Positions 1 to 51,957 of a stretch of 64,000 nucleotides of DNA are shown in pieces. The DNA lies in NCBI GenBank assembly GCA_033439295.1, contig JAVTLE010000004.1, forward strand, positions 1,612,012 through 1,676,011, written 5' to 3'. The notes beneath the pieces are model-generated. The model saw nothing but the letters and a program-made list of their open reading frames with translations. It made no database searches and was not told the origin of the DNA. Each line of letters begins with the position of its first letter. Position 1 is the first letter of the stretch. The DNA is from Deuterostichococcus epilithicus. Its lineage: Eukaryota > Chlorophyta > Trebouxiophyceae > Prasiolales > Stichococcaceae. Position numbers and translations under genes: made by a program.

Positions 1-171
1 TTTAGAGGTTAGGTCTAGTAGCTCTCCACCTGGAATGCCAAAATGCTACTCTCCCAGCTGCAGCGCCCGCCGCAGTGCGTGCAGCTGCTGGGTACCGGGG
101 CAACGCCTTCAACGCTGGGCCTCGCCAAACGGTGCCGGGCCTGTTGACCTGTTCCTGCTGCTCGACTGCAG

Positions 172-206
172 GACGCGCTTCATGCCGGGCAGCAACTGGG
201 TGTGGG
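172..206 (+). repeat. partial copy of a GnT-I exon start with its acceptor
   Basis: Thirty-five bases after a 'ctgcag' acceptor repeat the first bases of the true exon at 284-318 with about three mismatches, coding TRFMPGSNWVW instead of TRFMAGSYWVW. It lacks the rest of the exon, including the WDDF aspartates. It sits in the intron just upstream of the intact exon. Confidence 0.8.
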
Positions 207-283
207 GCGTTGTCTCCAAAACCCTCGACCGGGGTTTGGACACATTGAACCTCGACTGTTTTGCACCTGTCATCTGCCCGCAG

Positions 284-2143
284 GACGCGCTTCATGGCGG
301 GCAGCTACTGGGTCTGGGACGACTTTCTGCGCATGGCCACTGTGCGGCGGGGGCGGCAGTGCATCCAGCCGGAGGTCTGCCGCAACTTCAACTTTGGCGC
401 CCGGGTGAGGCAACTCTGGCGCCCGAGTGCGGCCTGCATGTCATGTTTCATCTGGGTTCCGGCCGCGCGGAGAGGCGCCGCCAGCGTGTGGCGTCGTGTG
501 CTGGGGANGGGGGGGGCTGCACGCCACCTGAAGTGCACCCTGTCTGCCGCACAGCAGTGCCAGGCCGTGGCCGAAGCGGCCCTGTCAGCACGGCGGCACG
601 TACAATCTAACACAGCTGTTCCGAGGCAGCTGGCGCCGCAGTTGCAGAAGTGCAGAGGCCACCCACCTCGGCACACAGTGCAGCAGGCCGCCCCGAGCAA
701 ACTGGCCTGCACCTCCACCTCACTGGGTTGCTGTTGCTGCGGGCAGGGCTCGTCGAAGGGGCAGTTCTACGCGGAGCACCTGCTGCCGGTGCGGCTCAAT
801 GGCGAAGACGTCGACTGGGGCCGCCAGAGCCTGTCGTACCTGCAGCCCGATGCTTACCTGTCGCTCATGCAGTCGCGCCTGATGGGTGTGTCACCACTGC
901 CTTTCAGACAGGGAACTGCATTCCAGGCAGGCGCTGGTGCCTGCCGCCAAGTCGAAGTGCGTCCTGGAGAGTCTGTTAGGACCGCCTGGAGAGGAGAAAT
1001 GTCGACTCATGCCCGCAGCGAAGCATGCTGGTCGTGCATGCCCTCCCAGCAGCAGTGTGTGGCTGCACTTGTTCTGGTCACGGGACTGAAGCCCAAAATC
1101 CAAAACCAATCGGCCACTGCTGGATCTTGGAGTCGGATGTTGATGTAAGCCGACCTTGCAGCTCTGCCTGTGATGCACCGTCACAGGCATGGCTTTGATC
1201 GGAACGAGCGACCCTTGTGCAGCTGCTGATGCAGAGCAGCAGCCGCTAGGAGCTCAACAGGTATTGCGCACTTCAAGTGCAGTGCTCTGCTGTTCTCAGG
1301 TACACCAGCTCCCTGGCGATCCTCATTCTATGTCACAAAGGGTGGCAGTACCGCCTCCTGTAAGCTCCCGTACCTACCCTGATAACCGAACTGCACACAG
1401 GTGCAGCGCCGGTCGCGTCTGTGGCAGCGGCTCGCGCTGCAGCGGGCGACGCAAAGCTGGAATACGACAGCATGGACGGTTTCAAATCGCTGGCGCAGAA
1501 CCTGAGCTGGTTCAGCGACTGGCGGGAGGGCACACCGCGTGGCGCCTACCACGGCGTGTTGTTTGCGCCGGACTCCGGCGGCGCCGGCGCCTCGGCCGAT
1601 GACACTGAGAGCGGCAGCCCGGTCGGTAGTGGCGGCAGCGGGAAGCGTGCACTGGCGGCTGGCTTCACGGGCGGCACGGCAGCCTATGGCGCCGCCTGCG
1701 CCGGGGCGGGCCGCTGTGAAAGCCCCAGCAGGCGGCTGCTGGAAGGGGGCCAGGCGCACGGCACCGGAATGGGTCCCGCCGCTGGCGCGGCAGGGGCGCC
1801 AGCTGTGGCAGAGCCGGCAGGGGAGGCCAGGGTGCAGTCAGAGGGTGATTCGCTGGGTGCGCCAAAAGGGGCACGGGATCCCATGCGCAGCGGTGACAGT
1901 AAGGGGGCGCCGGCGGTCGGGAAGGCGATCTTCCTAGTGCCGGGCGCCGTCTTCCGTGCGCCAATCACCCAATTCTCGGCACAGACGTATGTGGACGAAG
2001 GGCGGGCGGCTCTGGGCCTGGACGGCGGGCGGCGAGGCAGATCAGCCGAGCGGCAGCGGCAGCGGCAGCGGCAGCGGCAGCGGCAGCGGCAGCGGCAGCG
2101 GCGAACGAGGCACCGGAGAGCACGGAAGCACAGACGGCGCTGA
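284..2143 (+). CDS. MGAT1: alpha-1,3-mannosyl-glycoprotein 2-beta-N-acetylglucosaminyltransferase (GnT-I, GT13), 3' part
   Basis: Golgi enzyme that adds the first GlcNAc to the mannose core, starting complex N-glycan synthesis. Exons read 284-404, 747-887 and about 1401-2143; one small exon near 940-1000 is possible but unresolved. Family signatures seen: YWVWDDFLR and the GRQCIQPEV...NFG block (first exon), SSKGQFYAEHLLPVRLN (second), and DAKLEYDSMDGFK...WREGTPRGAYHGVLF (third), which match the ordered blocks of GnT-I. The N-terminal membrane anchor and first half lie before the window. The last exon runs about 180 residues past the usual GnT-I end as a Gly/Ala-rich tail closing in a Gln-Arg repeat; this may be a real extension or a missed splice. 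One undetermined base (n) lies at 508 in the intron. Identity is firm, exon borders in the tail are not. Confidence 0.8.
2051..2102 (+). repeat. CGGCAG hexanucleotide microsatellite
   Basis: About eight head-to-tail copies of a CGGCAG hexamer. In the GnT-I tail frame it reads as alternating Gln-Arg; in the next frame as Gly-Ser, in another as Ala-Ala. Confidence 0.9.
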
Positions 2144-2706
2144 CACGCGGCTGCGACATGGGGCGATAATGGCGCAGCCAAGCATGCACGTGCGGGTCGT
2201 TAACTTGAACTGGCGGCAGCTTCGGCGCCAGGTGCGTGACATATGTAGCGCCAGCCAGACACCGAGCATTTCGGGTGTACTCCTGGAAAAACCTGGAACC
2301 CAGGTCTGTATGTGCTATATGATGGTGTCCAAACGTTGAGATTTGTTACTCCTTGTTCTTCGTATGAACCCGCTTGCGGCCTGTCCAAGGCAGCTCAAAG
2401 CACTCTGTCCCTGCAGCAGCCATAGAAGATATCCACAAACCCAGGCCACTCGCCGTTGTGCGACTCGCACGCCAGACAACAAACTATACCAAGGATGCTG
2501 CCTCCAGCAAGCCTGGCTTGCGATCCACCGAGTGCTGGCAGCCATTATCTCCGGCATGTGTGTCCTGCAGTCCTGCGTGTCTGTTGAAGGGCAGGCACCG
2601 CATGTCATCAGAGCTGACGCCCCTCCACACGGGACGGTCCTCCAGCCGCTATCACGTTGACAGCTCCGCTTGCCAGCAGCCCCTTGGCGGCAGCGGCAGC
2701 CCACGC
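2144..2706. other. intergenic stretch, no gene seen
   Basis: Lies between the convergent ends of the GnT-I gene and the metacaspase gene. Open frames here show no family signature; presumably 3' UTRs of both genes. Confidence 0.5.
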
Positions 2707-5700
2707 TTAGATGATGAAAGACGCCTCGGCAGTGCGCTCGTTGCAGCTGAGGCATGGGTTCTGAGCGTAGCCGCCTGCCGCCAGGAAGTGGCGCACCTGT
2801 GCAAGCAGGACAGATGGTCAAGAAGAGACAATGCCTCCTGTCACCCGACAGTCATGCATGATCCGAGGAGGAGATCTTCCTCGAGGCGGGCAATGTCAGT
2901 CTTGGGCCCTGATGACGGAGGGCGTTCATTAGCCGGGGGACCTTTGAACACGCTGGTTGGTGTTCTTGGCGGCGACAGTGCCGCACCAGTGCATCAAACA
3001 GCCGAACGGTTGCAAGGTGGGCGCTGGCATGTGCTCATTCAGTGGCCCGATACATCAGCCAGGCGTGCCAGCTGCCAGTCCTCTTTGCAGCCTGCCAGCG
3101 TATGGGCGACCCCCACGAGGAGCGGCTGCGGCCAAGCAGTCAGCTGTCCCTGCCCAGCACTGATTCGCGAGCAGTGCAGAGCTCACCGAGCTGACGACCT
3201 CGGCGTTTGTGAGTGGCCGACCGGAACTGTTGTTCTTGACGGTCGTTGTGATGGCGTTTGTGAGTGCGCCGAAGGCTTGTCGCTTGTCGCCCGAGGGGCA
3301 CCTACATAGCAGCTTTTTTCGGGTCCGATTCGGGGTTTCATGGCCATATGAGCAGATTTAGCTGCAACAGTCGTGCTCGATCGCTGGACATGCGTTTGGG
3401 AACCTCATCACTGTCAGGTTGAGGCGAGACAGCAGCATTGGTGGCGGCCTGAATATTTTCCGACCTGCTACATCACTGCGTGCAACAAGTTTTGAACAAG
3501 CAGCCCGCAGGGGCGGCCCAGAAGGCTCACTAGATCCAAGCTTCACAGAGCAGCATGGGAGGAAGCAGGCATTGCAACGAAGTGCAGCAGGGGTGACTGA
3601 GGCAACGAGAATCACGCGTCTGCAGACGTCTCGTTGTCGCGGCAGCCCGACACCAGGCAGCTCCACTCCCGTGCGGCAAAGGTGTTGGGGCGCGGCCGCA
3701 TGATCCCCGCGCTCTGCGCATTGCATTGCTCCCTTTGATACCTTTGGCTCGAGGCTCGCTCACCAGCTGAAGTAGTTGCACGTGCGCCTCCCAGCAGCTG
3801 AATGCAACGTTGTTCTGCCGCTGCAGCAGACACACATGTGGCGCGCTTCGGAGCTGCGACCGGCCCTGCAGGCCTTGGAACACCATTTAACGACGATACT
3901 GCGCAGTGGCAAGAAGCGGGAGGCACCTGGTAGCCGCCGCCGCTGCCGTCGCCGCCGCCACCGCTGCCGCCGCCAAGCATGCTGCTGAGCGCGCCGCCAA
4001 AGCCGCCCGCTCCGCCCCCGCCGCCGCCGCCGCCGGAGTGGCCACCGCTGCCGCCGCCGCCGCCGCCAAAGTTCATGCCCGCCAGCTCGGTGACGAAGCC
4101 CATGAGCTTCTTGCCGGGCGTCTTGCTGGTGGCCGACGCCCCGAAGTTGTCCTTGAGCGCGCTGAAGATCTGGTTGTACGGCACATCCTGTGGCAGCCGA
4201 GTACGCTTGGAACAATGCAGTTTCGATGTCAGGACTGAACTCATGAGGCACGAAGCACCGGAGTTGGTGCCAGCTACTGTGCGGCCTTCCACACGCTGCT
4301 GGCTTCTGCCCCATCAAACGCTCACATGCTCCTCACAGCGTGGCGCGGACGGCTGGCGAGGGCCAGCGGCACTGATGCGGCGGCTCATTCCTGACACTGC
4401 TCCTCCGCGCCGGGGGGGGCACAGAGCTGCTGCTGGGCAAGGAGGCCCGCACTCATGTGATCGGCAACGGCTGGCGGCGACACACTCCCCAACACGCGCA
4501 GAAGGGAGCAGGCATGGTTGCGCACCCGGCCGAGGAACTGCGACAGCATGTCCGCCACGGCGTTGTACGGCAGCGACCGGTTCGCACTGAAGTCCCGTGC
4601 CTGTTTGGCACAGCAGCGTGATTAGGGTTGTGTGTGTGACTGTTGTCGCGTGGGATGCCAGGCTGAGCTGTCACGCCGCTGCACCAGAGGGCAAGCGCGA
4701 CGACTGTGCAAGAGAGGCGCGGCACGGCATGGGCTGCCGCTGAGTTCTCACGCGCTGGACGGCTCCCCAGCGGCAGCTGCTTGTGGCGACATTCGCCGCA
4801 TACTCTCTGCGGCAGGCTGGGTGCCGATGCACTGGCGCTTTTGGAGTCCAGTGCGGCCCGCCGCGCAACGGGCGTTGTCGCACCCAGAACGTGCAGCCGG
4901 CCAGGCAGAATTGTGTCCGCCTGTTTCCGCGCCCGCACCCTGGCGGCACTCTGGCAGCTTTCCAGCAGTAGCCGCCGCGAGCGCACCTCGGCGGCGCGGC
5001 CGATGCTTTCCTGCGAGTAGCCGCCCGCCTGTCGTGCGTCGCCCTCCGCAAGCTGAACCTCCTCGTAGTCCAGCAGCGTCCCGCTGTGGCAGCAGTCTGC
5101 AGGAAGTGACCACACATCAGCACATCAACAAGTGTTCAGCAGGGTCTGGAGACCGCGCCGGAACACTGTCTTGTCTGCAGCATTGGATCAACGGCAGTTT
5201 CCTCAGCCCGCAGGCCGCCTGCAGGGTGAGGGCTTCGTTGGGTGCCGTCCAACTCGCTGGGCTCGACTGCCAAAGGGTGCAGCTGAAAGCCCTGTGCACG
5301 CAAACGGCTGCTTCATGCCCGACTGCCTCGTGGAAGGTGGCCACAGGCCTGTGCCAAGGGCGACAGCTGACAGCAGCGCGGGCGTCGCGCACCAGCCGCA
5401 CTGGGAGGGTGCGCAGCAGCCCGGGGGGTGGGTATGAGCCATGTCAGTGTCGCCAGGGGTGGTTTCGCAGAGGCAGCGGGAGGTTGTGTGGGTGCGCACC
5501 GGCGATGACGGTGCACTTGACCTCCGGATGCAGCGGCGCCAACAGCTCTGCCATGTCGTCGTCCGTGATCAGGTTCTGCGCCGGAAAACTCAGTAATTGA
5601 GCAACTCGCTCTGCCGCATGCACACGGGACCGGCGACGGAGCTGCACAGTTCGCATCTGCCCCTGGCACTGTCATAGCAACGTGCGGCTTTGAGCACTTG

Positions 5701-16800: not shown

Positions 16801-19800
16801 CTGGCGGCCGCTGGTGACGACCGCTGTGCTCGCGGCCAGCTGCAGAGGCGTCGTGGTGGACGCAGCATGGCTGCGGTCTTCGGGGGTGTTTCCGCAGGCG
16901 CGCACCTGTTGGGCCGGCCATCGGTGATGACCACTATGCTGGCCGCCAGCGACGCAGGCGCCAGCGCCAGCAGGTCGGCGCAGGCCGCCACGCCGGCGGC
17001 AAGGTTGGTGTTGCCGCCACCCTTGGCGGCGGCGCTCACCCGCGCCGCCGCCGCCGCCGCGTCCGTCGTCTGCGCGGCGCAGCGGGGGCACGAACGTCCG
17101 TGGGGAGGTTTGTGCGATGTGCACGCACTGACGCAGTGCTCGCCGGACTCCGCCCCAGCCTGCCTGCCGGCCTCCGCCCCGGTCCCGAGACAACAGAGAC
17201 GCAGCCGTCCTGGTGCCACTCGTGGGTGCTCGTCCTGGGTTGAAAAAGCGAGGAGTTTCGGGGTTCAGGGTCTGGAGCACCCACCAGCGGGTCCACAATG
17301 CTCTGGGCGGCGGTGTCGAATTTGACGGCAGCGAAGAAGCTGGAGGCACCCGGCAGCGCCGCCTGCTGCACGATCAGCGACGCCACAAAGTCCTTCTCCA
17401 TGCCCCAGTCGGCGTCTGTCAGCGAGGCGGAGTTGTCCAGCGCGAAGCAGGTCGCGGCAGCGCACGCCGTGAGCGGCCGCGGCGGCGCTGCAGCAGCACA
17501 GGGGCAGGCGCGCGGTTCAGGCTCGAGATTGTAGACTTCTTGAGTGGGCAGATAGGTGTATGCACAGAGACGTGCGCAACTCATGCATGGCATATTGGAG
17601 CATGCGAGCCATGGAATTTGGGGACGAGGCCTTGCGGACGTACGGCGCACTCAACAGGCCAGTGTGCAACATGCTGCCAATGTGGCATGACACAGTTTCA
17701 GGTACATCACGCCAGCCAGTGGCAAGTGACAAGCGCATCAGCAGCTGCCGGTGGGAGAGCCATCCATGTGTGCATGCAGTACAAAGGTGCAGGCAGCACA
17801 GTCATCAACTGTGAGCGGTGCAGGCACTGCTGCTCACGTGAAGGGCTGCGCTTTGGAGGCGGCGGTGGCGGCAGCGGCAGCTGTGTTGTGATTGTGAATC
17901 CTGGGTTGCGCGGGGCTGCGGCAGCACACAGCGGCGTTTGCAGCAGTGATGTCAGGCTAGTTCCAAACCCAGAACTAGCCCGAGTGTCCGAGGCTGCTTC
18001 ACTGCCGGTACAGCTCTCGCCGACAAAAACAAATCAAATTTCGCACTACAGCTTCGCGACAGGCATTCCCAGGCGCAGTGCTCAACACGTCGCGCCGTGG
18101 CTGACCTTGGCGCCATTGCAGGCGACGCCAGGCCTGCGGCGCTGCTGATGCAGGTGTTTTGTCGGCCAGAGGCACATTGGCGCCCAGCAGCAGCGCACCC
18201 GAGCAGGACGCCGTCGTGAGTGTCTGCTGCACGTCAGCGGTGGAGGCGAAGCCGTTGGAGGGGTAGTAGTACGACGGCCGGGAGGCAAGCAGCCGCAGCG
18301 CTGCAGTGTTCACGGAACCCTTGACACCCACCGCGAGCACCACCTGCCCGTCGCTCTTGGCGGCCGCGGCGGCGGCCAGCGCCGCTGCAGCGCCGCTGCG
18401 TGTGGACCTGCGGGTGCATTACATTTGTTGTGTTCAGAGAAAGGCAGATGAAAGGTTCATGCCTCAACGATGTGTCGGTCTTGACGGCTGCCGCTGTGGT
18501 TGTGCAGCCATGCTGGCGCCTTGAATTGCGGCAGGACGGCAGGAGGGTGGCAATGAGTTTGAAGGGCGCGGTATGTCCTCCATTTGGGCAAGGAGAGCAA
18601 TAGTGGCGCAAAAGGCCCCAGGGTTGACGACGCCGCAAAGAGGAGCAGGCAACAAGTCTGGTGGCAAGCGTGTCCGGTTCCAGCCTGAAACGCTTGGGTA
18701 TGGACTAAGAGAGGGAAGCCGCACAGGTCGCTGCCGCCGGCCGTGAGCAGCAGCAGCAGGCGCGGCCGGGAGCGGTCCGCATTCGCCAGCGTCGCGGCGC
18801 AGGCTGCAAGGCCCTGCGTTGTGCCGGCGCCACCTCCGCGCTTTGTTGCGGCAGAGATGGCAGCAGCCACAGCCGCGGCGTTTTTCGACAGGCCGCCTGC
18901 AACACTCTGCGCCCCGCTGGCGTCGTACTTGACGGCGCCAAACCTGCGCCATGGCGGTTGACTCAATTGCAGTTTCTGAAGCTCGGCAAGCGGCTGGGCT
19001 CCTGGCTCTCCCGAGTCCCTGCATTGAGAGGCCATCGACATTGCCGGCTGCAAGGCCCGTGACCCGACCCAGCAGCGCCAAGGCTCCAACGCTACATTCG
19101 CATCAGCGGGCCAGGATGGCAGACGAACACGGAAGGCTCAAGGGCGTATCGATTCAAAGTCTCTGAGTCGGACACGGAGGAGGGGAGGGACGTCGCACAC
19201 GCTGCCGCCGCCCGCCGCGGAGTTGATGCCCTGCACCGCGGCCGCCGCCCAGGCCTTCTGCGTGGCCCAGTTGGTGGCCGTCAGCGACGCCCCCTGGTCC
19301 AGCGCCAGGCACACGCTGAGGGAGCAGGCGCCGCCCCCCGGCGGCGCCGGCGGCAGCGCCCTCGCCTTGGTGGGCGCTGCGGCAAAAACACAAAACCCTT
19401 ATTTCAGCTGTCCTTATTCCAGCTGTGGGGGGTGCGCACAGGCCAGGCTCGGCGCCTGCCTGCCTGTGACCTGGCGGAAGGAGCATAAAAAGCAGTGGGC
19501 GCAGTTCTCAGAGCCATCGCCTACAGGTGGCCGCACCAGCGGCCGCATTGCGGGTGTCGCATCAAGGCCTCGTGCACTCGAATCCTAAATCCTGATACAG
19601 CGACTTGCGACAGCCCTCATGGGCGCACCTGCGCAGACTGCGCCCAGAGCTTTGGGCAGTGCCGCCGCCAGCTTCGTGAAGCCAGACACCGGGAAGTAGA
19701 GACTGCTGGAAGTGGCAACCTGCAGGCACAGGCAGAGTGTAACGCATGGGTCGGCCCGGCGCGCGAGCCTGGCAGCGACAGCTTCTGCCCGTTAGCCCTG

Positions 19801-19903
19801 CTGGCGCCATGGAATGTTCCTGCTTGAGCTCCACAGTGTCACGAGCTGAGCGAGCCAAGGCTGCACCACAGATCGCAACCAGGGAGCGGCACAGTGCGCA
19901 GGC

Positions 19904-19941
<38 letters not shown>

Positions 19942-22683: not shown

Positions 22684-25600
22684 CTATTCGTTGCAGACGA
22701 GGTTCAGGATTGCATTCGCCAAGATCCGATTCATGTCGTCGATGCACTCGCGGCGCTCGTCCACCCATAACTCGTGCAGCTTGAAGCCCGTCGGCGACAC
22801 GAAGTGGTGGGAGTCGAAGCGGCTGAGCAGCGTCGCCGGCCCGACCTTGGGCTCCTGTGCAAAGGCACAGCAGGCATCAGCCATCAGCGTGAGACAAACA
22901 TGCATTAGTGGCTGGAAAGTTACGCAAAGTTTGCGTTGCATCGCCATGTGCTGCTCGGCTCAGCCGCCGGCCGCCTCAAACCCGATGACTCTAAGAGTGC
23001 TGCCTGCCAGCGCTGGCGCCAAGCTGGATTTCATTATGAAACCGCTTGCTGCCTGTGACTCGTCACCACTTAAGGCTGCAGGGCCGCTGACGTGCCACAA
23101 TTCAAGCGGCGCACCTCGAAGTTCAAAAGGCACTGGTAGTGCCAGTCGTCACCGACTAAGCCCCGCGGTGCGCCCCTCGCCCATGACAGCTTGTCGTAAT
23201 CCAGCAGCAGCAGCTTGGGGTCCGCCTGCGCTGCGACCCACGCCCGCACCGCCTGCAGCAATGCAATGAAGACTCGCATCACGGTGCACGCTCGTCAATG
23301 CGCAGAGTGTAGGGCTGCTGGCGCAGGTCTGCTCATCCTGTAGCTCGATGCTGCGCATCAGGTGATGCGGGCAGCCCCCCGATCTTCTCCTGCTCCGCCG
23401 AACCCGACTCAGAACGAAAGCGGGCACAGCGGGCGACAGCGATGCCCAGAATCTAGCAAAACACGCAGTCGGTGGCAGCAATGGACCTTAGGATATACAT
23501 AATGATTGATTCCGTGTCTACGTTCTTGTAGGAAAAGCAACTCCAAAGGAAACAAATCCGCACCTCGTTGCGCGCCTGCCATGTTGGGCGCAACGGCAGG
23601 TATGCCGCCTTGCTGATGGCCGTCGGCGCCGTCATCAGGATGACGCGCGCCGCCGCCGCGGCTGCGGCGCGCACCGTCTCCGCCCAGAAGTCGGGCAGCT
23701 CCGCGCGCTGCTCGTGGTACGTCAGCATGAGCGTGATGGTGGTGCCGCTCACGTCGTGCGTCGCCAGGTACCTGACCGTGCACGTGCTCTGGCCAATTGA
23801 GGGTGTTTTGCGAGCCCAGCAGGCTAGCGGGGTACTGGTTCTGCAGCGCGCCTTGAAGTGGAAGAAGGTGCAGCCCAGAGAGCAGTCACAGGACTGAGCC
23901 GTGAATTAGCATGAACAAGACATGCCTGACCTGCTGTCCCGAATTGCCTCCAACAACTAGAGACTGAACCGCCCAATACGAACGATGCGCAGGTGAGTCC
24001 GCAGTCTGAAGGGATTTGAAGAGCACCCTGGGCAAAGGTGCTGGTGGAAAGGTGCGCACCGCTGTAGCTGGAACGCCTGCCACTCAAAGTGCGCCGCCCA
24101 CGCAAACTCCAGGCCCACCGGCGGCTGCCGACAGGAATCCAGTGCGGAGGGGCCGTGGTAAAACCGGCCGTCGAAGGTCTCGTTGACAGGCATGTCCAGC
24201 GTCTGGTTAAAGGGAAACTGCCCCTCCGGCATCGGCGACGCCACAAGCCTGCGCACACCATGGTCTCGGGGTCGGCGCCGACTGTGTGCCCTGCTGCACG
24301 TCCCGTGCACACCCCCCGCTGCAGCGCTGGTGTGTTGGACACAACATGCGCAGGCGGCGGAGCGCGCTGCTTTCCTGCCCCTGAATGTGCAGCAGAATGC
24401 AAGGCGAGCTGGGTATTGAATGGCAGATCGCGACCCAGGCCGATCAACGCACCGGTCTGCAGGCTGAGGGCCGCCACAAACGTCGTAGCGTGCGGCGTTG
24501 TGGGGGCCATAGTCGAATGAGCGCTCCTCGCCGCGGAACAGGCTGATGAGCCGTGTGAAGATCTGGCGCATCATGCTGTCGCCTGCGCGCCACAACTTGG
24601 TCAGAATACAGGACTTCTCTGCGACAAGCTGGTGAGCCGCGTGAAGACCTGGCACGTCATGCTGTCGCCTGCGCGCCACAGAGCGCTCAAGATACAGCAC
24701 CTCCCTCGCAACCACTCTCTTGAGACAAGGCTCTCGTCCCGTCGCACTGCATCTCGTTCTGGTCCACGCGAGCGCTCAAAGTCGGGGGTTCACGGGGACT
24801 GCGCGTTCGCGAACTGGGGCCTCGCACCCACAAACAGGATGGCGGCGTCGCCGCGCGGCCGCGCGAGGCACTGGAGCGCGTCCCGCCGCCCGTACTCGTG
24901 CAGCGAGCAGCTGCTGGCCAGCTCCGGCCTCCCGGTGGCCGCATCCTGCGCGGCACGATGTACAAACACATGGACACCTTCCAGTCCTGTCCAGACCTAG
25001 CCATGCGACTGCTCCCGGGCATGACGCCGCTCTTCTGAGCTCACGTTTGTCCGCCTTCATGCCTGCAGTGCTGTTCCGAGCGGCGCCTGAGCAGCTTTGT
25101 CCAGAGTGCTAGACATGGCGACTTCGGTGGTCACCTGGTGGAATGTTCCAGTGATGCTGTCGCTGCCGCAGCACGCGCCGTCTGCGCAGCCTGGCCGCCT
25201 TGCAGCGGGCACCCCCCAGAAGCGGGGCGGAGGCCCCAGACACCACGGCCCGGGCACATTCAGGAACCGGCCTGCGCCGCATGCAGAGGCTGTCCAGTGC
25301 AGCGCAGAGAATGCTCTCGCCTGCGTGACGGCACAGCCTCGCCGACAACCGCGGAAGCCAACCCCTGTGCAGCCCGTGGACAGAGCCTTCTGCATTCTGC
25401 ACTCCAAGGGCCCAATGCCCCGCCGTGCTGCCACACGTCTGGACCTGGGTCGCATGCGAACATGTGGGAAACGAGCAATCACCTGAAGAGGGAAAGGGGC
25501 AGTGGCCCATGACCTCGTTGACATCGAAGGCAATCTGCGCCGTCGGGGTCGGCGCCTGCCGCGGCTCCTGCTTGCCTGCAGTTGTAAAGTCAGGAGCTTT

Positions 25601-38461: not shown

Positions 38462-38491
38462 GGCTCGCGAGGCGGCGGAAAGGAATGAGGA

Positions 38492-38549
38492 AGAGGCTCC
38501 GCAGAATGGGACTTGAAAGCAGAGGCTCCGCAGAATGGGACTTGAAAGC
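38492..38549 (+). repeat. 29-bp perfect tandem duplication
   Basis: Two identical 29-base units (38492-38520, 38521-38549) just after the stop of the single-vWA gene, probably in its 3' UTR. Confidence 0.92.
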
Positions 38550-39276
38550 AGACACAGCAGCGGCATCGCACTCGGGGCAGCGCCAGGCGATTGTTGCCAG
38601 CTTCACAAATACGCACTGCTGCAACATCGGTGGCTGCTGCGGCCTTCTGCTGCCGGGGCCAGCCATGGCGTGCCAGCCAGCAGGCGGCTTTGGCTCGTCG
38701 TCAGCAGGGGCTGCGGTGCTGGCCAGCCTCGCACTAGACGGAATTGCAATGCAGATTGGCTTCGAGCTGTGCGTCTGAGTCTCATGCTGCCGCATGCCGC
38801 TCGACTTGTCGTACCCAATGATTTTGTCAGGCAGTCTCTGATCTCGTATACCTACCTAGAGCAGCAACTGGCAGCATGCAACTTTGCATACTGGTCCAAG
38901 TTGGGGCCACGAAATGCTGTGCAGATGCTAGGTAGGTTGAGCGCAATTTATTGCCAACTGAATGAATTTGGGGTCGGTTTGAACCTCGGTGCTGTGCATT
39001 TTGGGATCGCGACTGCAGGGGTGAACCATCCGGAAGACACAGCTAGCTGATCGGGCTCTTGCAGAAGTCCGGACGCACGTGCCCTGCATGAAATATGCCA
39101 GCCTTCATGCCAGCGGCACGCCATGCCATGTGGCCGGCACTGCCGCCACCACAGCCGCCACTCGTCTCCATCTGTCGCTCCATTCAATGGTGCGGCTCCA
39201 CCAGCAGCTGGCCAAAAGCGCTGGCTGAATGCTGCCGCGGTGTTGTCCCTCAAATCGTCCGACATCGCCCATGACG
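38550..39276. other. convergent intergenic region
   Basis: Between the ends of the single-vWA and MTA/SAH nucleosidase genes. Nothing recognised apart from the tandem duplication immediately before it. Confidence 0.45.
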
Positions 39277-41978
39277 TCACAGCTCGGCGACTGTCTTGCC
39301 AGCAACGAACTCGAGCACCTGCGGCGTCGCAGTAGCAGGTCTGGACTGCTGCGCTACCTGTCAGCATTGCAGGGCTGCTGAATGAGCTCCTGCACCGCGT
39401 ACTACTTCAAACAGCATCGTCACCCAGCCACCAGATGTGGGATCCCCACCGATGCTTAGACAGGGCTCGGGCAAGCTCGACCGGGATAGAGAACGAAACG
39501 GAGATTCATTCATGCCGCACCTGCGGGAGCTTATCCTGCAGCGAGTGCGCCGCCGCCGCCAGGTTCTCCAGAAACTCCTCGTTGGTTGGCCGGTCGCCTG
39601 CAGGCATTGCAGCAGTGCACATCGGCACCCGCCTTGACGGCGGCACCGCGCACCGGCTGATTAGACAGACGCACAGCTTGCATGCGCACTGGAACAGGCG
39701 ACCGTGTGCAGGTCGAGCATGACCGGAAACATATTGGGGCGGATGCCCACGGGTCTGCTGCTGGGAGCAGCAAGCGTCCAGACATGTGCACGGCCAGTCA
39801 GCCACACCGACTTGCGCGCTTGTTCACAGGCGCCTCAAATGGCTGATCCAAATCCTGCGGCTGATGTAGGTGGACGACATCTGCCGCCAGCGACTCCCTG
39901 CCACCAGCCCGGCCTGGAAGTTGTCGGCGAGTGCCAATGATGCCAACGATGACCTCCCTTGCAAAAACGAAGCAGCTGACCGTGTGAGCAGCAACTGATG
40001 CAGCCCACCGTCCACGATGTCGGTGATGGCCTTGAGCGCGAACATGGGCGTGCCAAACAGGTGCGCCGCCCACGCGATGGACGCGGCTTCCATTTCCTTG
40101 ACGGCCACTCCGTGCTGCTCCATGCTCTCCAGGTCCTCTTTGGTGAAGCCCAGGCTGTTGCCGCTGGAAACGATGCCCTCCTGCGCAAGGAAGCAACAGA
40201 GAATTTCATACACGGTTTGGTAGATGATCTCTTGCACCCTGACCAGGCTGCTTCGTGCTGCTCCCTCCGCTCCACGTCCTCCCTGGTAAAGTCCTGGCCG
40301 CTGCCGCTGGACAGGACGCCCTCTTGCGCAGGGAAGCAGGTGGGAACAGGGGCTTGAGCGGGCTGGTCCAGGCTGCTGCCACTCGACGCCCCGCCCGCCT
40401 GCAGGTTGCTGCAGCCCGTGCAGCTCCAGCTCACGATCTGGTGACCATCGCTGATTGCAGGGCAGCCTGGTGCTGCCATTGCGCCGGCCGGACACGCCAG
40501 TTCCCGCTGAGTTTGGAGCTCCTCGAAGGGGGTGGGAGGTGCAGCGGGCGCACAGCGGGCTCGGCAGAGTCCTGCAGCGTGCGGAGTTTAGGGTTTAGGG
40601 GCTCGCACCTTCAGGCCGAGGGCGGACGTCAGGTTGGGCGCCGGCACGTTGTCGTAGGCGCCAATGCCGTACGTGTCGAAGCCCTGCACCGCAGCAGCTT
40701 TCGGCAGGTGTCAGCGGTCAGGCTTCGGAAACCAACTAGCTCAGCGCCCTGCAGTAATGGCGCAGCTTGGCAATCGCAACATGGCTCCTGCTCACGAACA
40801 GGCAGCGCCGCTGCATGCACGACTCGTGCGATGCATGATGCCCTCCAGCCAATTTAGCAACCCAGAACCCTGTGCTGATGCTGACGGCACTCAACGGAGT
40901 ATCACAGCGATGCGCTGCGCTCACTGATGGACGAATTCGCACTGATGACGGTTCCATCAGGCAACACTGAAGCCCATTGCAGTGATGGACCCCATACGCT
41001 CAGCAGCAGACTGACCAGGACAGGGATCCGCCGGGCGTGATGCATCACGGCCCTGCCAGTTTGCCGTCCCAAGATATCCAGCACCTATCAGAAGTGCACG
41101 TCTGCGCAGAGTCTCGACCTGCCGCTCACCGGGATGGGGATGCGCCGGTCGTGGTGCATCACGGCCTTGCTCACGTACACGTCGCCGATGGCGCCGCCGC
41201 GGGCCTTGAACCCGCCGGCGGTGCCGGCGCTGATCAACAGGTCCGGGCTGAACGTCTGGAGCGCCAGGTAGGTCGTCAGCGCCGCCGGCACGGTGCCAAT
41301 TTGGTCCACGTTGTGGATGGAGCACTTGCCTGCGCGTCAGAGAAGCGGCAGCCTCAGAAGCTGCGCTGCAAAGTCGAAAGTAGACCACCAGAATCTTCAC
41401 TGCACCCGGAAGTACGCCGGCGCCGGTAGTGCGGTGCCTATCTGGTCCGTATTATGGACGGAGTGGTCTTGCCTGTCTAACCAGAAGGTCCCTCAGATCG
41501 ACCACTACGCCTGGACCTTGAAGCAATGTGAGGTCAACGATGCTATGGGCAGCACGCTGTCAGCGCCGCCGGCATGGCAGCCGTATGACTACGTTGTATT
41601 CTGAAGCACCCTGTCCGCAAAAGAGCGGGACTCCCTCCTGACCACCATTGGTGCTTGACACAGCACATTTTCAGGAGTTTGGGGCAAGACTGGCAGGCCC
41701 TGACAGACCGCGAGTGGTCCCATGAAGCGGCAACACCAAGAACTGCGTGCCGTGCAGTGGCTGGACCTGTGCAACCATCTGGCTACCAGTCGGTTGTGGA
41801 AACAAACTTGCACGTGCTGCGCACCATTGCACACGATGTGGAGGTCCAGGCCGAAGGCTTCGCCCGAGAAGGTCACGCAGGGCGCGGGAGACGCAATTGC
41901 GGGCGGGTCGTCCCGCTGCAGGCCCAGCCTCTTCAGCAGCGGTTGCGCCTCCGCCTCCATCGCTGTCACAGCCCACAT
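39277..41978 (-). CDS. MTN: 5'-methylthioadenosine/S-adenosylhomocysteine nucleosidase, plant type
   Basis: Cleaves MTA to adenine and methylthioribose in the methionine (Yang) cycle; cytosolic. Minus-strand exons: 41978-41825, 41329-41130, 40683-40609, 40180-40009, 39597-39521, 39318-39277; phases close to 239 aa, the family size. Signatures: AVTAMEAEAQPLLKRL at the N-terminus (acid in the position of E. coli Glu12), QIGTVPAALTTY, LLISAGTAGGFKARG, HHDRRIPIP, the catalytic KEMEAAS (E174) and KAITDIVDG (D197), then RPTNEEFLENLAAA as in plant MTN. A short upstream coding exon cannot be excluded, but MWAV begins directly at the first core strand. Introns carry several diverged copies of exon edges (see separate entries). 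Confidence 0.9.
40252..40331 (-). repeat. diverged copy of the 5' part of MTN exon 4
   Basis: Reads EGVLSSGSGQDFTREDVE where exon 4 (from 40180) has EGIVSSGNSLGFTKEDLE, with a CAAG/CAGG acceptor context kept. About 75 percent identical by eye; lacks the catalytic part of the exon. Lies upstream of the intact exon. Confidence 0.75.
40585..40601 (+). repeat. short TTTAGGG telomere-like motif
   Basis: Two TTTAGGG units plus a trailing G inside an MTN intron. The heptamer is the plant/green-algal telomere unit; two copies may be chance. Confidence 0.5.
41012..41057 (-). repeat. diverged copy of the 3' edge of MTN exon 2 with donor
   Basis: Codes AVMHHARRIPVL followed by GT, against AVMHHDRRIPIP|GT at the true exon end (41130). 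Lies downstream of that exon in the intron. Confidence 0.78.
41430..41476 (-). repeat. diverged copy of the 5' edge of MTN exon 2
   Basis: Resembles 41290-41333 (start of exon 2, GKCSIHNVDQIGTVP) but with frame-spoiling differences; lies upstream of the intact exon in the intron. Confidence 0.6.
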
Positions 41979-45063: not shown

Positions 45064-48000
45064 TCAGGCCCGCTTGAAGTGCGCGATGTAGCGCCGGTAC
45101 CGTGAGAGGTCTGCTTGCAGCCTACGGCATCGAAGCTACATGTCAGCGCCATGAACGCAGCGATGACTGTGTGTCAAGTACATGAGGACAGCTCCTACAC
45201 TGGCGGCAGGTGCCACCCTTGGCCACCTGGACCAGCCACGACGTCGCAGTTGTGCTTCCTCAGCGGTACTCAAAGGCGCAGTGCACAGTGCGCCCACCTG
45301 TCGTGCAGCTGTTTGTCGAATCCGTCCTTCTCGAGCCGTGCGCGCTGCCACCGCGAAAACAGACGCTGCTGCAGCGGGTGGTAGTCGAAAGCCTGCGGGT
45401 CGCAACAACAGGCGAGTCTATCGACCAGGACTGTGTAGCCTCTGCGACAGGGTGATGGCCGGCGCCATGACCTGGCAACAGATAGGGACATGCAGACTCC
45501 TCAGCGCAAGCCTGCGGCCAGTGCGGCTTGAGGCTGCTGAGCTTGCAGGGAAGTGCGCGACGTCACCGGCAGCCGCCTTCGTGGATGGCTGCAAGTGCAG
45601 GCGCTCGATGACATGATACGACATCCGGGGTTATTCTCAACCACATAGCAAATCAGCTTCACCTCATTGGTCAGCAAAAAGTAGAGGTAGAAGCCGATGG
45701 CAGTGCCCAGCGACACAAAGTAGGCCACCTGTGGGGGGCACACAGTGCATGATAGTTCATGTGTTCAGCTCTCTGACAGCATAACATCGTCTCGCTCCGG
45801 CAGCACAGTTGCGTTTGGAAACATCACAGCGCTGGCAGCGCTCCTGAGCAGAGAGCTAGCTGCGGCGTGCAGCAGCGAGGTCCTGCAGACGAAGGCGGCA
45901 ATTGACGGAGATGCAGCAGCAGCTGAGTGCTGAAAAGACAGGATATCGAAACAGGGAGACGTACCGGCTCCATGACGTCCCAGCTCAGCTCGTACCTGCA
46001 AATGGCGCAAATTGCAACAATCACGAGCTCGCCTCGGAGAAGTCGGTTCCAGCAGACAGCTGCTTGCGGCTATGGTTGTAGCCCAGGGAACAGACCAGGA
46101 GTGTGACAAGGCCCTGGCCAGACCAATTGCAGCACGCTCTCATGCCGTTTGGCATCCTCCCGGTGCATTCTAGGTGGACTGTACCATGTGAGCCAGTAGA
46201 AGACGGTCCACTGGCTGACGAGGAGCGTGAAGCCGAACCACATGACCGCCTTGCTGCGCCTGCGCGGCGGGAACAGCCGCGGTCAGCCGCCCTTTTCGCA
46301 GAGCAGGTGACTTGCCGGCGCATGAGCAACAATCTGCCAGTCCCCCAAACGCCCAGCCACCGACGCAGCCCAAAACCCTTGACTGGCTGCCATTGCTACC
46401 CTGCCATTGACTCCCTGGCAGTCCTGACGAGCGACGAGGTATCGAGAGCAGCAGAGGACAAGGAGCCACGGCACCTGTGCGCCGCAAGGTCAATCTTCCG
46501 CTTGCGCTGCTCCAGCGGCTCCAGCTGCTCGGTCAGCTCCTTTTCCCTCGTCTCGAGATCCTGCAGCGTGTCTGGCAGCGCCTGCAAAGCCGCCACAGCA
46601 GATTGAAGCAGGCTTCACGGAGGGCTTTCAGCTCAGCGATTTAGGATGGGCGCCTGCCGAGATGGGTGCTCCGTCCGTCAGCTGCCTTGCGGCAGCCGGC
46701 GTGCCGCTGGCGCCACGGAGGCACACATCAACGCCGCATGTGCAAGGTGTGACCTGCATGGCACCCAGGTTGCCAGGCAAAGCAGCTGCTGCTTCGTGCT
46801 TCGTGCTCCCTGGCTACCCCTCGACTTATCTGCAACATGCCGTGCACGACCTCTGAGAAGGTTTCCGAACCTGCAGCACGCTATGTGCTGTGTCATCTGG
46901 GCAGATACACCTGCTGCCGAAAGCGCAGCGCTACGCCGCCGCTGCCGGAAACCCTGTTACCTCAGACTTCACTGAGTTCTGTGGGTATGACAGATTTCAA
47001 CAATGAAGGTGTCCGCACCTGCAGCACGCCGTGCGCGACCTCGTCCGGGCGCAGGTACACCTGCTGCCGGAAGCGCAGCACCACCCCCGCGGCGCACAGC
47101 GCCTTGGCCAGCTGCCCCGCCTCCGCCGAATCGGACGCGGCGCCCCTGCGGCAACAGGGCACGTCCTCGGTCACAGAGTGGCCCTTCCCCGCAGCAGAGG
47201 ACACCATGCTCGGTCAGAGTCGCCCTCTCCTCTGCCCGCAGCACAGGGCACATGCAGGTCGGGAGGCCGTGCGGCATGCGGTGCAATCAGGGGCATTGCA
47301 GCGCCGCATAGCAATGACGCCACAGTGAGACCATGCCACAGCGTCTCGTGCTGCTCAGTAACGCATGAATCTCTGTGCTCGCGGAAACCACGTTATGTTA
47401 GGGTCAGCCGCAGCTCGGATGCTTCTGGCAGCTGCACGATGAGTACAGTGGCTGGCCGCTGGGCATTTGCATGCGTCACATCGTTCCGCTTCGTTTGCTT
47501 CACGGATCCCAGAACAGCGATTTTGTAGTGTCAAAGAGGAAGCTTACAGTGCAACGGCCAGGTCGAGCAGCTGGGAGCCGGGGACCGATCTATCACCATG
47601 TAAGCAGGGGAAAAGCAGCTCGACAGCCAGGCCCAGCAGCTGGGAGTAGGGACGGTCGCCTGCCGCTGCACATCTTGCAAGCCCAGCAACTGTACTTCCG
47701 TACTGGTGTGCGGGCGAGAGACGCACAGCTCGATGGCCAGGTCCAGGAGCTGCGAGTAGGGGACGGTTGCCTGCCGCTCGCTCAGCGCGCGCAGCTCCTC
47801 TCGCAGGTGCGCCACGTTCGCGTGCTGCGCAGCAGTATCGCTTCAATGGATAGCACACTCGTTTGCAGATATACCCCAGGCTGGCATGACGCATGGCTAC
47901 CGACACCGGTCATCTCTTCTCAATACGGTAAGGCTCCGTGCTGCAGGTAGTGGACAAGCAATGTATATTTTCACGCTGGGCATCCGCAGACTGCAGCTGC

Positions 48001-48656
48001 AGAGTTTCGGCGTTGACCGCAAGCTCTGAAAGTGTAAAGCTGATGTGGGTCCATACCTGAAGGACGACGCTGGCCTCGGCGACGCTGGTCGCAGTGAATG
48101 GGATGGCGGAGCCCAGCCGCAGGTCCTGGTCGGCGTGCTGCGGCGGCACCGGCGGACCGTGCTGCTGCTCCAGCTGCTCGCTGAGAGCTTCTCCGGCTGA
48201 TGGCTGCTGGCCGTCCGGGGACGGCGTTCCAGTGGGGCCATCATTCTCGGAGGCCTCCTTGTTGGGATGGTGTCCCGGCAACGGCGTCGTGGGAGGCGGC
48301 CCCACCGTGCTCAGGCGCCGCCGGGACCAGGTGCTGGAGCTGATGCCGCTGCCAATGAAGCCTTGTGGCCCCACCATGCCGCTGGCGCTCCAGGAAGGCG
48401 CATGGTCACCACGTGCTGTGTGGTTCAGGCTGTCAAGTAGACGGCAGCCTTCACTGGTTGCTAGTGCTGTCGATAACATGCGGCTGCCGCGGCCGAGCGC
48501 GGTTGCTGTCAGGCTGGTCCAGCCCATTTGCTGGATCGCTGTGGCCACGCCCGGTTGCATGGCGCCGGAGGCTGCTCCAGCGCTGGGTACAAACGTGCCG
48601 TGACAGAGATCACGGATCACCAATCCGGACCTGCAAGCGGCCAATCGCCGCAGCAT
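45064..48656 (-). CDS. MCU: mitochondrial calcium uniporter pore subunit, plant-like
   Basis: Inner-membrane Ca2+ channel. Minus-strand exons: 48656-48057, 47824-47727, 47145-47019, 46581-46475, 46259-46185, 45995-45965, 45728-45663, 45392-45298, 45121-45064; phases close to 418 aa. The start MLRRLAACRSGLVIRD has the Arg-rich look of a mitochondrial presequence, followed by a long low-complexity N-terminal region. Then VPYSQLLDLAIEL and AKALCAAGVVLRFRQQVYLRP (MCU N-domain pattern), a coiled coil (QDLETREKELTEQLEPLEQR), TM1 (VMWFGFTLLVSQWTVFYWL), the selectivity filter WDVMEP (D342, E345) and TM2 (VAYFVSLGTAIGFYLYFLL). WYELSWDVMEP is encoded by a 31-base micro-exon. The C-terminus is basic (RYRRYIAHFKRA). 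Introns 2 and 3 carry exon-edge copies. Confidence 0.9.
46828..46946 (-). repeat. diverged copies of the 3' part of MCU exon 3 with donor
   Basis: About 46862-46946 resembles 47009-47095 (the end of exon 3 plus its donor; the copy keeps CTGCAG|GT). A shorter, weaker match lies at about 46828-46856. Both are downstream of the intact exon. Confidence 0.7.
47548..47662 (-). repeat. two diverged copies of the 3' part of MCU exon 2
   Basis: Segments about 47548-47592 and 47603-47662 each resemble the end of exon 2 (VPYSQLLDLAIEL, 47727-47775): one reads VPGSQLLDLAVAL, the other RPYSQLLGLAVEL in their best frames. Both lie downstream of the intact exon in the same intron. Confidence 0.75.
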
Positions 48657-49367
48657 AACTGCAGCTGCACCTCGAGCCCCGTGACTGGCACCTAGATCGT
48701 ACTTCGGACCGCGCTCGATGCGTCCGCCTTCTGAGACGACTAACACGGTGCCTCACATACGATGAAGCCTGCTGTATACAAGAGTTGCCCTGACAAAAGC
48801 ACGAATGGCAGATCATGGTGTCGCAGTTGATGTGCCGAGTCATCAACTTATGCTCCAGGGCGGGTTCACTATCCAATGCTGCAATGTACTGGCAATGTTG
48901 CAAGTTTGCATTGCCTTGAGGTGTAGGTATATCCGGTCGAGCCGTATCACCAAGGCTGGCCTACGGCAGGCAGGCTACTGGACTGACACTGAGGAGTTTA
49001 GACCTCGCTAGAGTCAGATAAACTCCCCAGCGGCGCCCGCAACAAGGCAGGTACCTGAGGTCACATGTCATGCTCCAATGGCGCAGGCTGCCCTGCTCGC
49101 GGACGCTGTCGCCACACTCAGTGCACGGAAAAGTGCAATGTGCGAGGTCCCAACTAGGTGGATCACCGTCCGCCCGACCTGCGCGCCGCTGCGAGACTCC
49201 AGGGAGCAACTGCAGCACGCATGTGAGACATGTTGTGTCGCCACCATCACGCAGAGGGGCCTAGTGTGTTCAGGTCGAACGCTGCGCTGCTGGCAAGCCT
49301 GCGCCGGCGTTGCCAGCAGCCGGGCGGGGCGGCGGCCTGCGGCGGCTACGCTGTGGTGCAGCAGCGG
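48657..49367. other. intergenic, MCU promoter side
   Basis: Between the MCU start and the PI synthase stop, both minus strand. No coding signature. Confidence 0.45.
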
Positions 49368-51957
49368 TCAGGCTATCTTGGCAGACTCCTTGGCCACGCT
49401 GCCCGATTCCCGTTCCCGATCATAGGCCACCAGCGCCTGCATGCTGGAGCGCAGCTGGAAGCAGTTGATGATCTGCTTGACCAGGAAGCCCGGCAGCGAT
49501 AATGCCGCGGTGACCGCCGCCAGCGGCAGTCCCTGCACGGGCATGCCACGGCACCGTGAAAGCTCTCCGAAAGACGCCTCGTCGCACGAGCACTGACACG
49601 CCGCTGTGAACGACAATCTGCAGCAGGGCTCACAGCTCGGCGCGGCGGGGGTCAGTCTCAACCTGCCGCGAAACACCAATGGCGCGCTATGATGCCTCCA
49701 GAAACGCCAGAGCACGTGCACCAGGCACCAGGGCAAACCAGTGGATCCGGGTTCTATCATCTCATCAGTCACGGGGTGCAGCACCTTTTCCAGGCCTGCG
49801 GCGTCGGGCAAGTCCCGCAGCAGCCGCTCCGGCAGCGCGATGGGCAGCACTGGCCACTCTCGAAACTGCTTCCAGTCCAGCGCATACAGCTGCGATCAGC
49901 GAAGCAAAATATGTAAAAAAGTGGCCTCCGACAGCCCGATAGGCAGCACTGGCCACCTACAGAAAGTGGATTCAGTCCACAACAGCTGCACGTGCTGGAT
50001 TGACAGCACTGCTTGGGGGGCCCGCGGGATAGTTGGTACATGTTCGCATCACAGGTTCGTCTGAATAATGCACGAGGCCGCCACACGACAAGCACAAGCT
50101 GCATGCGGAGGCGAGGGCCAGGCAGCATGCAGCATGTGTGACAGGGTGGTGGTGGAAACAGGCACCGTATTGCTGCAGAACAAGGCCTCGTAAGGCGCTG
50201 CATGTGCAAATTACATTTCCAACAGCGGCGGGCGGCCTCCATGAGCAGGACCGCTGGTGTCTTCTGGGAAATTGGATGTTCGGAAGTCGCTGAGAGGTCG
50301 ACGCTCACCGAGAGGTAGAGGACCTCGCAGGAGATGCAGCAGACGCCCATCAGCAGGCGGTGCTTGTAGTAGGTGCGCACCAGCCAGGAGCGACTGTGCA
50401 CGTCCTGCAGGCAGGGCGGAAGGGAAGTAAGGGTTTCAGAAGCTTCTGCAAAAAGGATCATGTGAGGAGCTGGGGCTTGCAGTAGGTGCGCACGAGCCAG
50501 CTGCGGCTGTGCATGCCCTGCAGGGCCCCGAGCACAGGGAGGACAGGGGCTCATCCACCGCTCAGGGCCTGAGGGGGGGAGTGGACCAGGGGTGTGGCAA
50601 TGTAGCGAATTGCAAGAGCGGCAGCATTGGCGCCGGCAGCAGCAGCCGGCCGAGTTGCCCCACCAGCATGCCAGACACACGAGAGAGCGTGCGCGCCGCA
50701 CGCCGGAGTCCCACCTTGTGCGTGCTGCTGCCCGACACGAATGTTGAGTACATCTGGAACCTGCGGCGATGGACATCAGCACACTCAGCGCGGCTCGGCC
50801 CGCCAGACAGCGCCCCAACACGCACCTGGGAAGGCACCTGGGGCAACATCAGGCTCTGGCGAGGTGCCGCGTGTCCGCCGGATCCGGCAACAGGCCGGCG
50901 CAATGCATGCACAACTTGGTTTGCTCGTCGCAGCTGGAGCAGTTACGAGCTGGAGATCGCACCAGTGGCTGAAGATGTCCAGGAACATGAGGCCCAGAAA
51001 CAGCATGTAGGAGCGCGGGTACAGCATGCCCAGCACCGCCAGCAGCCCCGCCGTCGACAGCCTGGGCGCCAGGCAGTACAGGGATTGTGTAAAGCCCCCG
51101 CTGCCAGGCTCCAAGTCCTCCAGTTGGGGCGTGTGCGCGGTCGCGCAGCGACAGTCATGTCGCAGATTGCTGTGTCATGAGCCGCTCCTGGCGCTGGCAC
51201 CTTCCTTCGGGTGCTTTACCTTCACGGTATCAAGTCGTCACTGTGGTGTCAATGTGTTTGCAGACGCTGCTTGGTGTGAAGACGCTGGCTCTAAAGATTG
51301 GCGGGCCCTCACCTGTCGGTGACCATGTCAAGCACGGCGCCAAGCGTGGAGCTCTGGTTGAACGTGCGCGCGGCGCGGCCGTCCGTCTCGTCCAGCACGA
51401 ACCTATGGCGACAGCCAACGCGTCTCAGGGTACGGGATGCACTGGCTGCACCACCTGCCGTGCAGCAAGCCGCACAGAGCGCCGCAGCACCGGGGCGGCG
51501 CCTAAGCAGCAAGAACCTGCATTGCTGCTGGGACACGGCCGCGATACGGTGATGCATGCAGTGATGCTGCACTGGAGCGCCCCCCCAAGAGAGACGCATG
51601 ACTGGCTGCGGGCAGGAGGCGGGAGCGGGGTCTCGAGGTCGCACCCCAGGAAGTATGTCAACACGCAGTAGTATGGGTCCCGCAGCGCCACCGCAAAGGC
51701 GAACAGCGCGCACACCACCCGCGCATAGCCTGCAGGACCAAGAACAGTGCATGCTTGCAGCGCAATGAGGCAGCCTTTTGGTTGCCCCAGCCTGCGATGA
51801 TCCTGCCGCAAACGCAGCGCTTGTGAGGCAACAGTGCTTCCGGAAGCCACATGCAGCGATGCCGGCTAGTCAAGATGATAAGCAGCCTACCGATGAGGTT
51901 GGGCACGTATATATATGTGTTTCCGTGGCGCCCGAAAAAGCCTATGCTGTTTGCCAT
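49368..51957 (-). CDS. PIS1: CDP-diacylglycerol-inositol 3-phosphatidyltransferase (PI synthase)
   Basis: ER membrane enzyme joining CDP-diacylglycerol and myo-inositol. Minus-strand exons: 51957-51891, 51729-51645, 51402-51313, 51061-50963, 50760-50715, 50404-50309, 49889-49785, 49532-49368; phases close to 250 aa. N-terminal YIYVPNLIGYARVV is the family start. The CDP-alcohol phosphotransferase motif is complete: D58-G59-x2-A62-R63-x8-G72-x3-D76-x3-D80. FLDIFSHWFQMYSTF and GVCCISCEVLY are specific for PI synthase, and the C-terminus has LPGFLVKQIINCFQLRSS. Several hydrophobic spans agree with a polytopic protein. Exon 7 (LYALDWKQFREWPVLPIALP...) is a lumenal or loop insertion relative to short plant forms. 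Confidence 0.92.
49929..49992 (-). repeat. diverged copy of the 5' part of PI synthase exon 7
   Basis: Resembles 49828-49892 (exon 7 start with its CAG acceptor) at about 75 percent by eye, with small indels. Lies upstream of the intact exon. Confidence 0.7.
50466..50521 (-). repeat. copy of the 5' part of PI synthase exon 6 with acceptor
   Basis: After a CTGCAG acceptor it codes HSRSWLVRTYCKPQL where exon 6 (from 50404) has HSRSWLVRTYYKHRL. Lies upstream of the intact exon. Confidence 0.85.

Follow-up and report, generated by a model that had tools for sequence, protein, structure and literature searches.

Why the introns of unrelated genes should carry worn copies of the exon edges beside them is the question raised by a 64,000-nucleotide stretch of DNA from the green alga Deuterostichococcus epilithicus (C4:1612012-1676011, hereafter the window), which belongs to a genome of 46.8 Mb in 21 contigs with a GC content of about 61%. 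We consider that these copies, called ghosts below, are probably remnants of small tandem duplications, with units of about 80 to 150 bp, that crossed splice junctions. The original prediction had placed such copies, each with its splice site, at nine intervals in five genes of the window; when these were aligned to sequence up to 400 bp away, all nine aligned to an exon edge at offsets of 86 to 148 bp, one of them (MTN 41430-41476) weakly. The random-draw control for this alignment may overlap the query, and chance was judged instead from the scan of mismatched introns described below. A blind self-BLAST of the window, in which detection used no prior intervals, recovered eight of the nine as pairs, MTN 41430-41476 not among them, and the divergence of these eight, about 10 to 22%, lies within the 8 to 25% first noted. 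At E ≤ 10 and a spacing below 1.5 kb, this search returned 15 direct repeats, namely the eight ghosts, four short weak pieces, the pair at 58101 and two pieces that form part of an array of protein repeats at 15.86 kb; among direct pieces of up to 1 kb at E ≤ 0.01 there were 11, namely the eight ghosts, the two pieces of the one array at 15.86 kb and 58101/58170.

The first ghost lies on the plus strand in GnT-I, where an acceptor with exon 5′ edge at 168..209 is 90% identical to the real acceptor and exon 5′ edge of the gene model at 280..321 (lag, 112 bp). The other eight are on the minus strand. In the TBL-like gene, BLAST and the gene model place the real exon 5′ edge (to 24582) and 38 bp of intron at 24538..24620, and the ghost at 24624..24706 is a near-whole 86-bp tandem unit that includes the intron side (81% over 83 bp; lag, 86 bp; 22 of 35 positions identical in the intron part). 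MTN holds three ghosts: one at 40251..40338 copies the real exon 5′ edge region at 40108..40195, whose residues occur in a plant MTN structure (81%; lag, 143 bp); one at 41011..41056 copies the exon 3′ edge and donor modeled at 41125..41170 (83%; lag, 114 bp); and the weak one at 41430..41476 matches the exon 5′ edge at 41291-41329 in a single gapped alignment at a lag of about 141 bp, the predicted exon ending at 41329. In MCU, the ghost at 46857..46937 resembles the exon 3′ edge and donor at 47005..47087 (78%; lag, 148 bp), and the exon 3′ edge modeled at 47725..47778 has one ghost at 47616..47667 (87% to 47726-47778; lag, 110 bp) and a second at 47546..47585 (77.5% to 47725-47764; lag, 179 bp). 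The two PI synthase ghosts, at 49926..49989 (78%; lag, 99 bp) and 50472..50524 (85%; lag, 113 bp), copy the modeled exon 5′ edges at 49827..49893 and 50359..50411, respectively. A further, short pair of exon 3′ edge and ghost lies on the plus strand at 58101-58125 and 58170-58194 (96% over 25 bp; lag, 69 bp), in an intron model that is unusually long (2,283 bp). As for the gene names proposed at the outset, Pfam backed four of the five (GNT-I; PNP_UDP_1 for MTN; MCU; CDP-OH_P_transf for PI synthase), and the TBL-like segment had no Pfam match at 1e-4.

Outside the window, 200 kb on seven contigs, picked by place and not randomly, were added to give a sample of 264 kb. Gene models were obtained from DNA only with an ab initio finder self-trained on this sample, which converged on the donor (C)AG/GTGCG and the acceptor (Y)GCAG/G (slash at the junction) and yielded 585 introns with a median length of 212 bp and 640 exons with one of 107 bp. 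Repeat detection gave 59 merged pairs, from which 15 exon/exon, 4 intron/intron and 2 mixed pairs were left out, and 38 exon/intron pairs were retained; some of the exon/exon rows are ghosts miscalled as exons, and others reflect genuine repeats within proteins (C1 48.5 kb and window 15.86 kb). The exon/intron pairs fell in six of eight sampled blocks, on C1, C3, C4, C5 and C6, so that the spread beyond the window that had been anticipated was found on five of the seven sampled contigs; the 10-kb samples of C9 (one intron/intron pair) and C12 (no pair of any kind) held none. That the ghosts are an assembly artefact is scarcely credible. Nothing was found in support of this, although a few N bases occur in the sampled stretches, and against it stand the divergence of most pairs (10 to 25%), which is too great for a simple assembly error, as the original prediction had also argued, their presence in six blocks with strict polarity, and the lack of any other copy of three loci in a genome-wide search. 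Insertion of introners or transposable elements was rejected, as all three loci tested are single copy genome-wide apart from the local exon. A test for retro-copies, in which the ghost flank was compared with the neighboring exon across the exon-exon junction, gave p ≤ 0.05 in 4 of 21 cases with a median p of 0.39, a slight excess that amounts to no strong signal.

The copies are local, direct and polarized. In a junction-anchored scan of exon edges against their own introns at a score of ≥14, a copy was present for 18 acceptors and 14 donors out of 580 each, versus 0 of 2,867 acceptors and 1 of 2,867 donors when exons were scanned against introns of similar length elsewhere; within the sample, the comparison of own with mismatched introns that had been suggested as a check thus upheld the claim. 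BLAST pieces of up to 1 kb in the 264 kb numbered 55 direct versus 4 inverted, and ungapped near-repeat segments numbered 64 at lags of 20 to 419 bp versus 3 at 400 far lags, those 3 all lying within 150 bp of each other. Across 521 internal exons, the acceptor edge had a match in the upstream intron 15 times and in the downstream intron never, and the donor edge had one in the downstream intron 14 times and in the upstream intron once. In total, 29 of 1,042 scans matched in the expected direction and 1 of 1,042 in the wrong one, which confirms the polarity first described (5′ edges upstream, 3′ edges downstream); it was also observed in 38 of 38 exon/intron pairs, a count that geometry partly forces. 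The match edge lay between −14 and +7 bp from the junction in 29 of the 38 pairs.

The size of the duplicated unit is likewise confined. Lags of ≤160 bp were found in 27 of the 38 pairs, 26 of these within 80 to 151 bp with a median of 113 bp; several of the remaining 11 are second copies within an array, and all 11 were omitted from the flank tests below. Among the 64 near-repeat segments, 17 had lags below 70 bp and 34 in total lay at 80 to 149 bp with a peak of 14 at 110 to 119 bp, and the few above 149 bp clustered around 160 to 189, 220 to 249 and 270 to 289 bp. These lags resemble small intron lengths, and the creation of an intron when an exon segment with AGGT is duplicated in tandem (Rogers/Hellsten type) is the same class of event. 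As the origin of the ghosts, however, intron creation of this kind is highly improbable: the intron exceeded the lag by at least 40 bp in 24 of 26 matched introns (the difference was −43 bp in the two others, and one of the 27 pairs lacked a matched intron), and the bases just before acceptor-type ghosts typically look like an acceptor and not like a donor.

Complete or near-complete repeat units were present at four loci, namely TBL 24538 (83 of 86 bp), C3 40795 (a 119-bp repeat at 94.5%, confined to the intron), C1 19393 (three copies at 104) and C4b 43770 (copies at 82). In the 27 pairs, identity on the exon side at constant lag was about 70% in the 30 bp nearest the junction, and a gapped flank test gave p < 0.05 in seven, where about 1.4 were expected (median p, 0.21). 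Copies that abut without filler and have both flanks duplicated were seen at the four loci and not at RPS19, and flanks were significant in 7 of 27 pairs. Several observations weigh against tandem duplication as the origin. On the intron side, identity at constant lag falls to baseline past about 10 bp, being 498/1,820 (0.274) within the putative unit versus 390/1,620 (0.241) beyond it; significant flanks in 7 of 27 pairs are far from the 83 to 93% that a steady-rate model predicts; and the RPS19 ghost (C1:535.9 kb), although 93% identical over 58 bp, has flanks that look unrelated by eye. Intron-only duplicates are also few (4 of 59 pairs), which fading can explain and a preference for junctions could as well.

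A rival is a process limited to the junction, either duplication plus filler or templated insertion, in which repair inserts a copy of the exon edge and a few splice-site bases along with filler; the intron flanks would then have lacked homology from the start. The drop in flank identity within about 10 bp of the junction is what it would give, and RPS19, with a telomere-like spacer of 32 to 36 bp between its copies, and the over-representation of telomere units in introns also speak for it. On the other side stand the full tandem units at four loci and the excess of gapped flank similarity; moreover, on the acceptor side similarity is lost in step with the splice consensus at each position, which is what selection acting on the real site would produce. 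We regard junction-limited copying as unlikely and hold it as a live minority view, with tandem duplication as the main origin.

For tandem duplication, the erosion of the flanks bears on the age of the events. The original prediction had read the range of divergence as events recurrent over time, and an even spread of events was not supported: steady-rate neutral duplication was simulated with events even in time, gave a flank identity of 0.4 to 0.6 and significant flanks in 83 to 93% of pairs, and was rejected on flank erosion. The small difference in intron-side similarity (0.274 versus 0.241) and the scarcity of young pieces (5 of 55 direct pieces at ≥93% identity, two of these longer than 30 bp) fit mostly old events. 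With ghost-lineage divergence set to 0.3 to 0.4 and indels to 0.1 to 0.2 per substitution, an old-event simulation gave a flank identity of 0.25 to 0.38 at 10 to 30 bp (observed, 0.30 to 0.32), a match edge near the junction in 60 to 79% (observed, 78%) and significant flanks in 11 to 43% (observed, 26%); its exon identity of 0.62 to 0.68 is slightly low against the data. Some tension is left, since with old events weak matches should be more numerous than they are (after control subtraction, about 9 at scores of 10 to 14 and none at 8 to 10, versus 32 at ≥14). Because the simulations fit better with mostly old events, steady production in time is disfavored, and most of the duplications appear to be old.

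Codon-position and splice-site counts were made on the 25 of the 27 pairs whose anchored match to the exon was 20 bp or longer. Mismatches by codon position were 83/369, 73/370 and 99/366, indicating no strong coding constraint, and two stops occurred in the 25 ghosts. Recombination between diverged alleles, which would put mismatches mainly at third codon positions, was rejected on this pattern. Ghosts retained the splice dinucleotide AG in 9 of 17 cases and GT in 4 of 8, about the neutral expectation at 79% identity, and eight of the nine retained AG sites scored ≥4.2 (quartiles of real acceptors, 4.4 to 6.5). Some ghost AG sites could, as judged from their sequence, serve as cryptic splice sites.

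These scores, and the fact that several ghosts are open enough for the gene finder to call them exons (RPS19, MTN, GCL and IF3), would suit exons that have a function, whether alternative or mutually exclusive, or decoy splice sites that are conserved. We nevertheless find such a role very unlikely, given the near-even mismatches and the stops, the near-neutral retention of AG and GT, and the lack of preference in lag modulo 3 (8/8/11 in the 27 pairs). A tandem alternative exon would show coding constraint on both copies and presence in the family; the codon pattern gave no strong sign of the former, and in three genes the homologues skip the segment. The best plant MTN structure covers residues 8 to 168 and 210 to 294 and skips the intervening ghost, the one at 40251..40338 that the finder miscalled as an exon; the best structural match of glutamate-cysteine ligase (GCL) aligns to residue 60 and restarts at 78, again skipping the ghost; and the structural homologue of eS19 aligns to residues 3 to 105 and resumes weakly at 149. 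Ab initio gene finders can thus mistake ghosts for exons. In the GCL gene (C5:316.5-320 kb), ghost pairs at 18029, 18907, 19113 and 19694, four in all, share a stretch of about 2 kb.

In nine of ten hand-registered triple arrays, which were chosen because each ghost matched the exon, the two ghosts resembled each other less than either resembled the exon, which is expected if the exon is a conserved hub; the tenth was misregistered. Near-equal spacers within such arrays were suggestive, but they failed at some loci and were rejected as a rule. The region C4:727-745 kb, which includes genes that we take from their translations to be tryptophanyl- and leucyl-tRNA synthetase-like, is dense in ghosts, three of which stand in arrays of three at near-equal spacing.

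Introns also carry telomere units. The repeat (TTTAGGG)n is terminal on at least C1, C3, C4 and C5, and in 140 kb of introns AGGGTTT (19 occurrences) and AAACCCT (23) were found at 4.6 and 4.0 times expectation. Telomere 12-mer clusters, allowing one mismatch, numbered 5 and 8 per strand in introns versus a mean of 1.08 and a maximum of 3 for 38 controls of the same composition, and none were found in 90 kb of exons, where control patterns are also rare. Examples of intronic TTTAGGG/CCCTAAA units lie at C1:535.9 kb (RPS19), C4:704.4 kb and C1:518.2 kb, and the RPS19 spacer resembles a degraded telomere repeat. One could picture breaks near junctions in this lineage being repaired by copying of the exon edge and its few splice-site bases with filler, partly made by telomerase, so that junction-limited copies entered introns and lengthened them in steps of about 115 bp, in place of plain tandem duplications that then decay; we think this unlikely. 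Only three telomere patches are adjacent to ghosts, and telomere-like filler was not adopted as a general mechanism. Telo-boxes are regulatory telomere-like motifs, and the intronic motifs may mark either repaired breaks or such boxes.

Three other repeats were recorded in the sample: a coding repeat at C1:548.5-549.3 kb, which recurs every 60 bp (20 residues) within a predicted protein and is apparently unrelated to the ghosts, and, in the window, perfect tandem repeats at 2049-2102 (nine copies of AGCGGC) and 38492-38552 (2.1 copies of a 29-bp unit).

Tandem duplication would account for the ghosts as follows. Local DNA repair, blind to gene structure, would create tandem duplications, possibly by fill-in of staggered or nicked ends followed by end joining. 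If splicing then used the site adjoining the complete exon, the second copy of its edge would become intronic, and the change would be neutral with the mRNA unaltered; since this holds only when splicing keeps to that site, acceptor-type copies would come to lie upstream and donor-type copies downstream. Selection would keep the exon copy and the splice consensus, and the ghost would decay at the intron rate, so that exon-ghost similarity outlives intron-intron similarity and the visible match stops at the junction. Duplications within exons would shift the frame or add residues and be removed, and intron-only duplications, with both copies drifting, would fade about twice as fast. With one copy nearly frozen in those that cross a junction, exon edges would stand out without any targeting of junctions. 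The small junction-spanning duplications originally proposed agree with the direct, local and polarized repeats and with the units at four loci, and a process aimed at exon edges appears unnecessary, as selection on the mRNA and slower exon-intron decay can explain the pattern.

The event class is already known, and what this alga offers appears to be a dense, old record of it. Patch-repair tandem duplications in rice were reportedly described by Vaughn and Bennetzen in 2014. Rice tandem duplications are enriched at 50 to 200 bp, with a share of events that declines above 125 bp (PMC7971508). The likeness lies in direct, local repeats, a share falling above about 125 bp and the standing of such repeats as a leading source of insertions (PMC7971508); the features that mark patch repair, direct close repeats and a unit size concentrated below about 125 to 200 bp, were found here. 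The rice events, however, are young changes seen against an outgroup, whereas those of the alga are old, decayed copies seen via the exon. Among small insertions in the human genome, tandem duplications are said to be the commonest, and they arise in mouse and human cells when broken ends are filled in or joined (PMC5730883, PMC8355091). Fill-in by CST/Pol alpha-primase at breaks with long overhangs makes small tandem duplications at the broken ends, although the overhangs there, of about 43 to 54 bp, were induced and the cells were those of mouse and human (PMC8355091). In the potato RdRp intron gain, the unit crosses an intron 3′ end and exon 5′ edge as it does here, but an extra intron and inserted exon sequence resulted (PMC4974935), whereas the algal copy is intronic and the protein apparently unchanged; the same paper gives an 83-bp duplication inside an intron (PMC4974935). 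Novel introns of Drosophila, formed by tandem duplication of coding sequence, also show local duplication near splice sites changing introns, but at new intron positions (PMC2891723), whereas the ghosts are remnants in existing introns. Mammalian double-strand breaks can receive telomere repeats, sometimes with duplication of the site (PMC2246262); only one young ghost, that of RPS19, clearly has such a spacer here, and the link is suggestive. Among the matches listed, no paper treated decayed exon-edge copies as a genome-wide class, which is not proof of absence.

With exons as slowly changing templates, the size and approximate age of old insertions in introns can be estimated with no need of an outgroup, and short tandem duplications can leave in a single genome a fossil record of their size spectrum, ages and tolerated positions. 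The ghosts bear on intron growth and on the origin of cryptic splice sites, and they suggest that a plant-type process of small duplication reaches a green alga.

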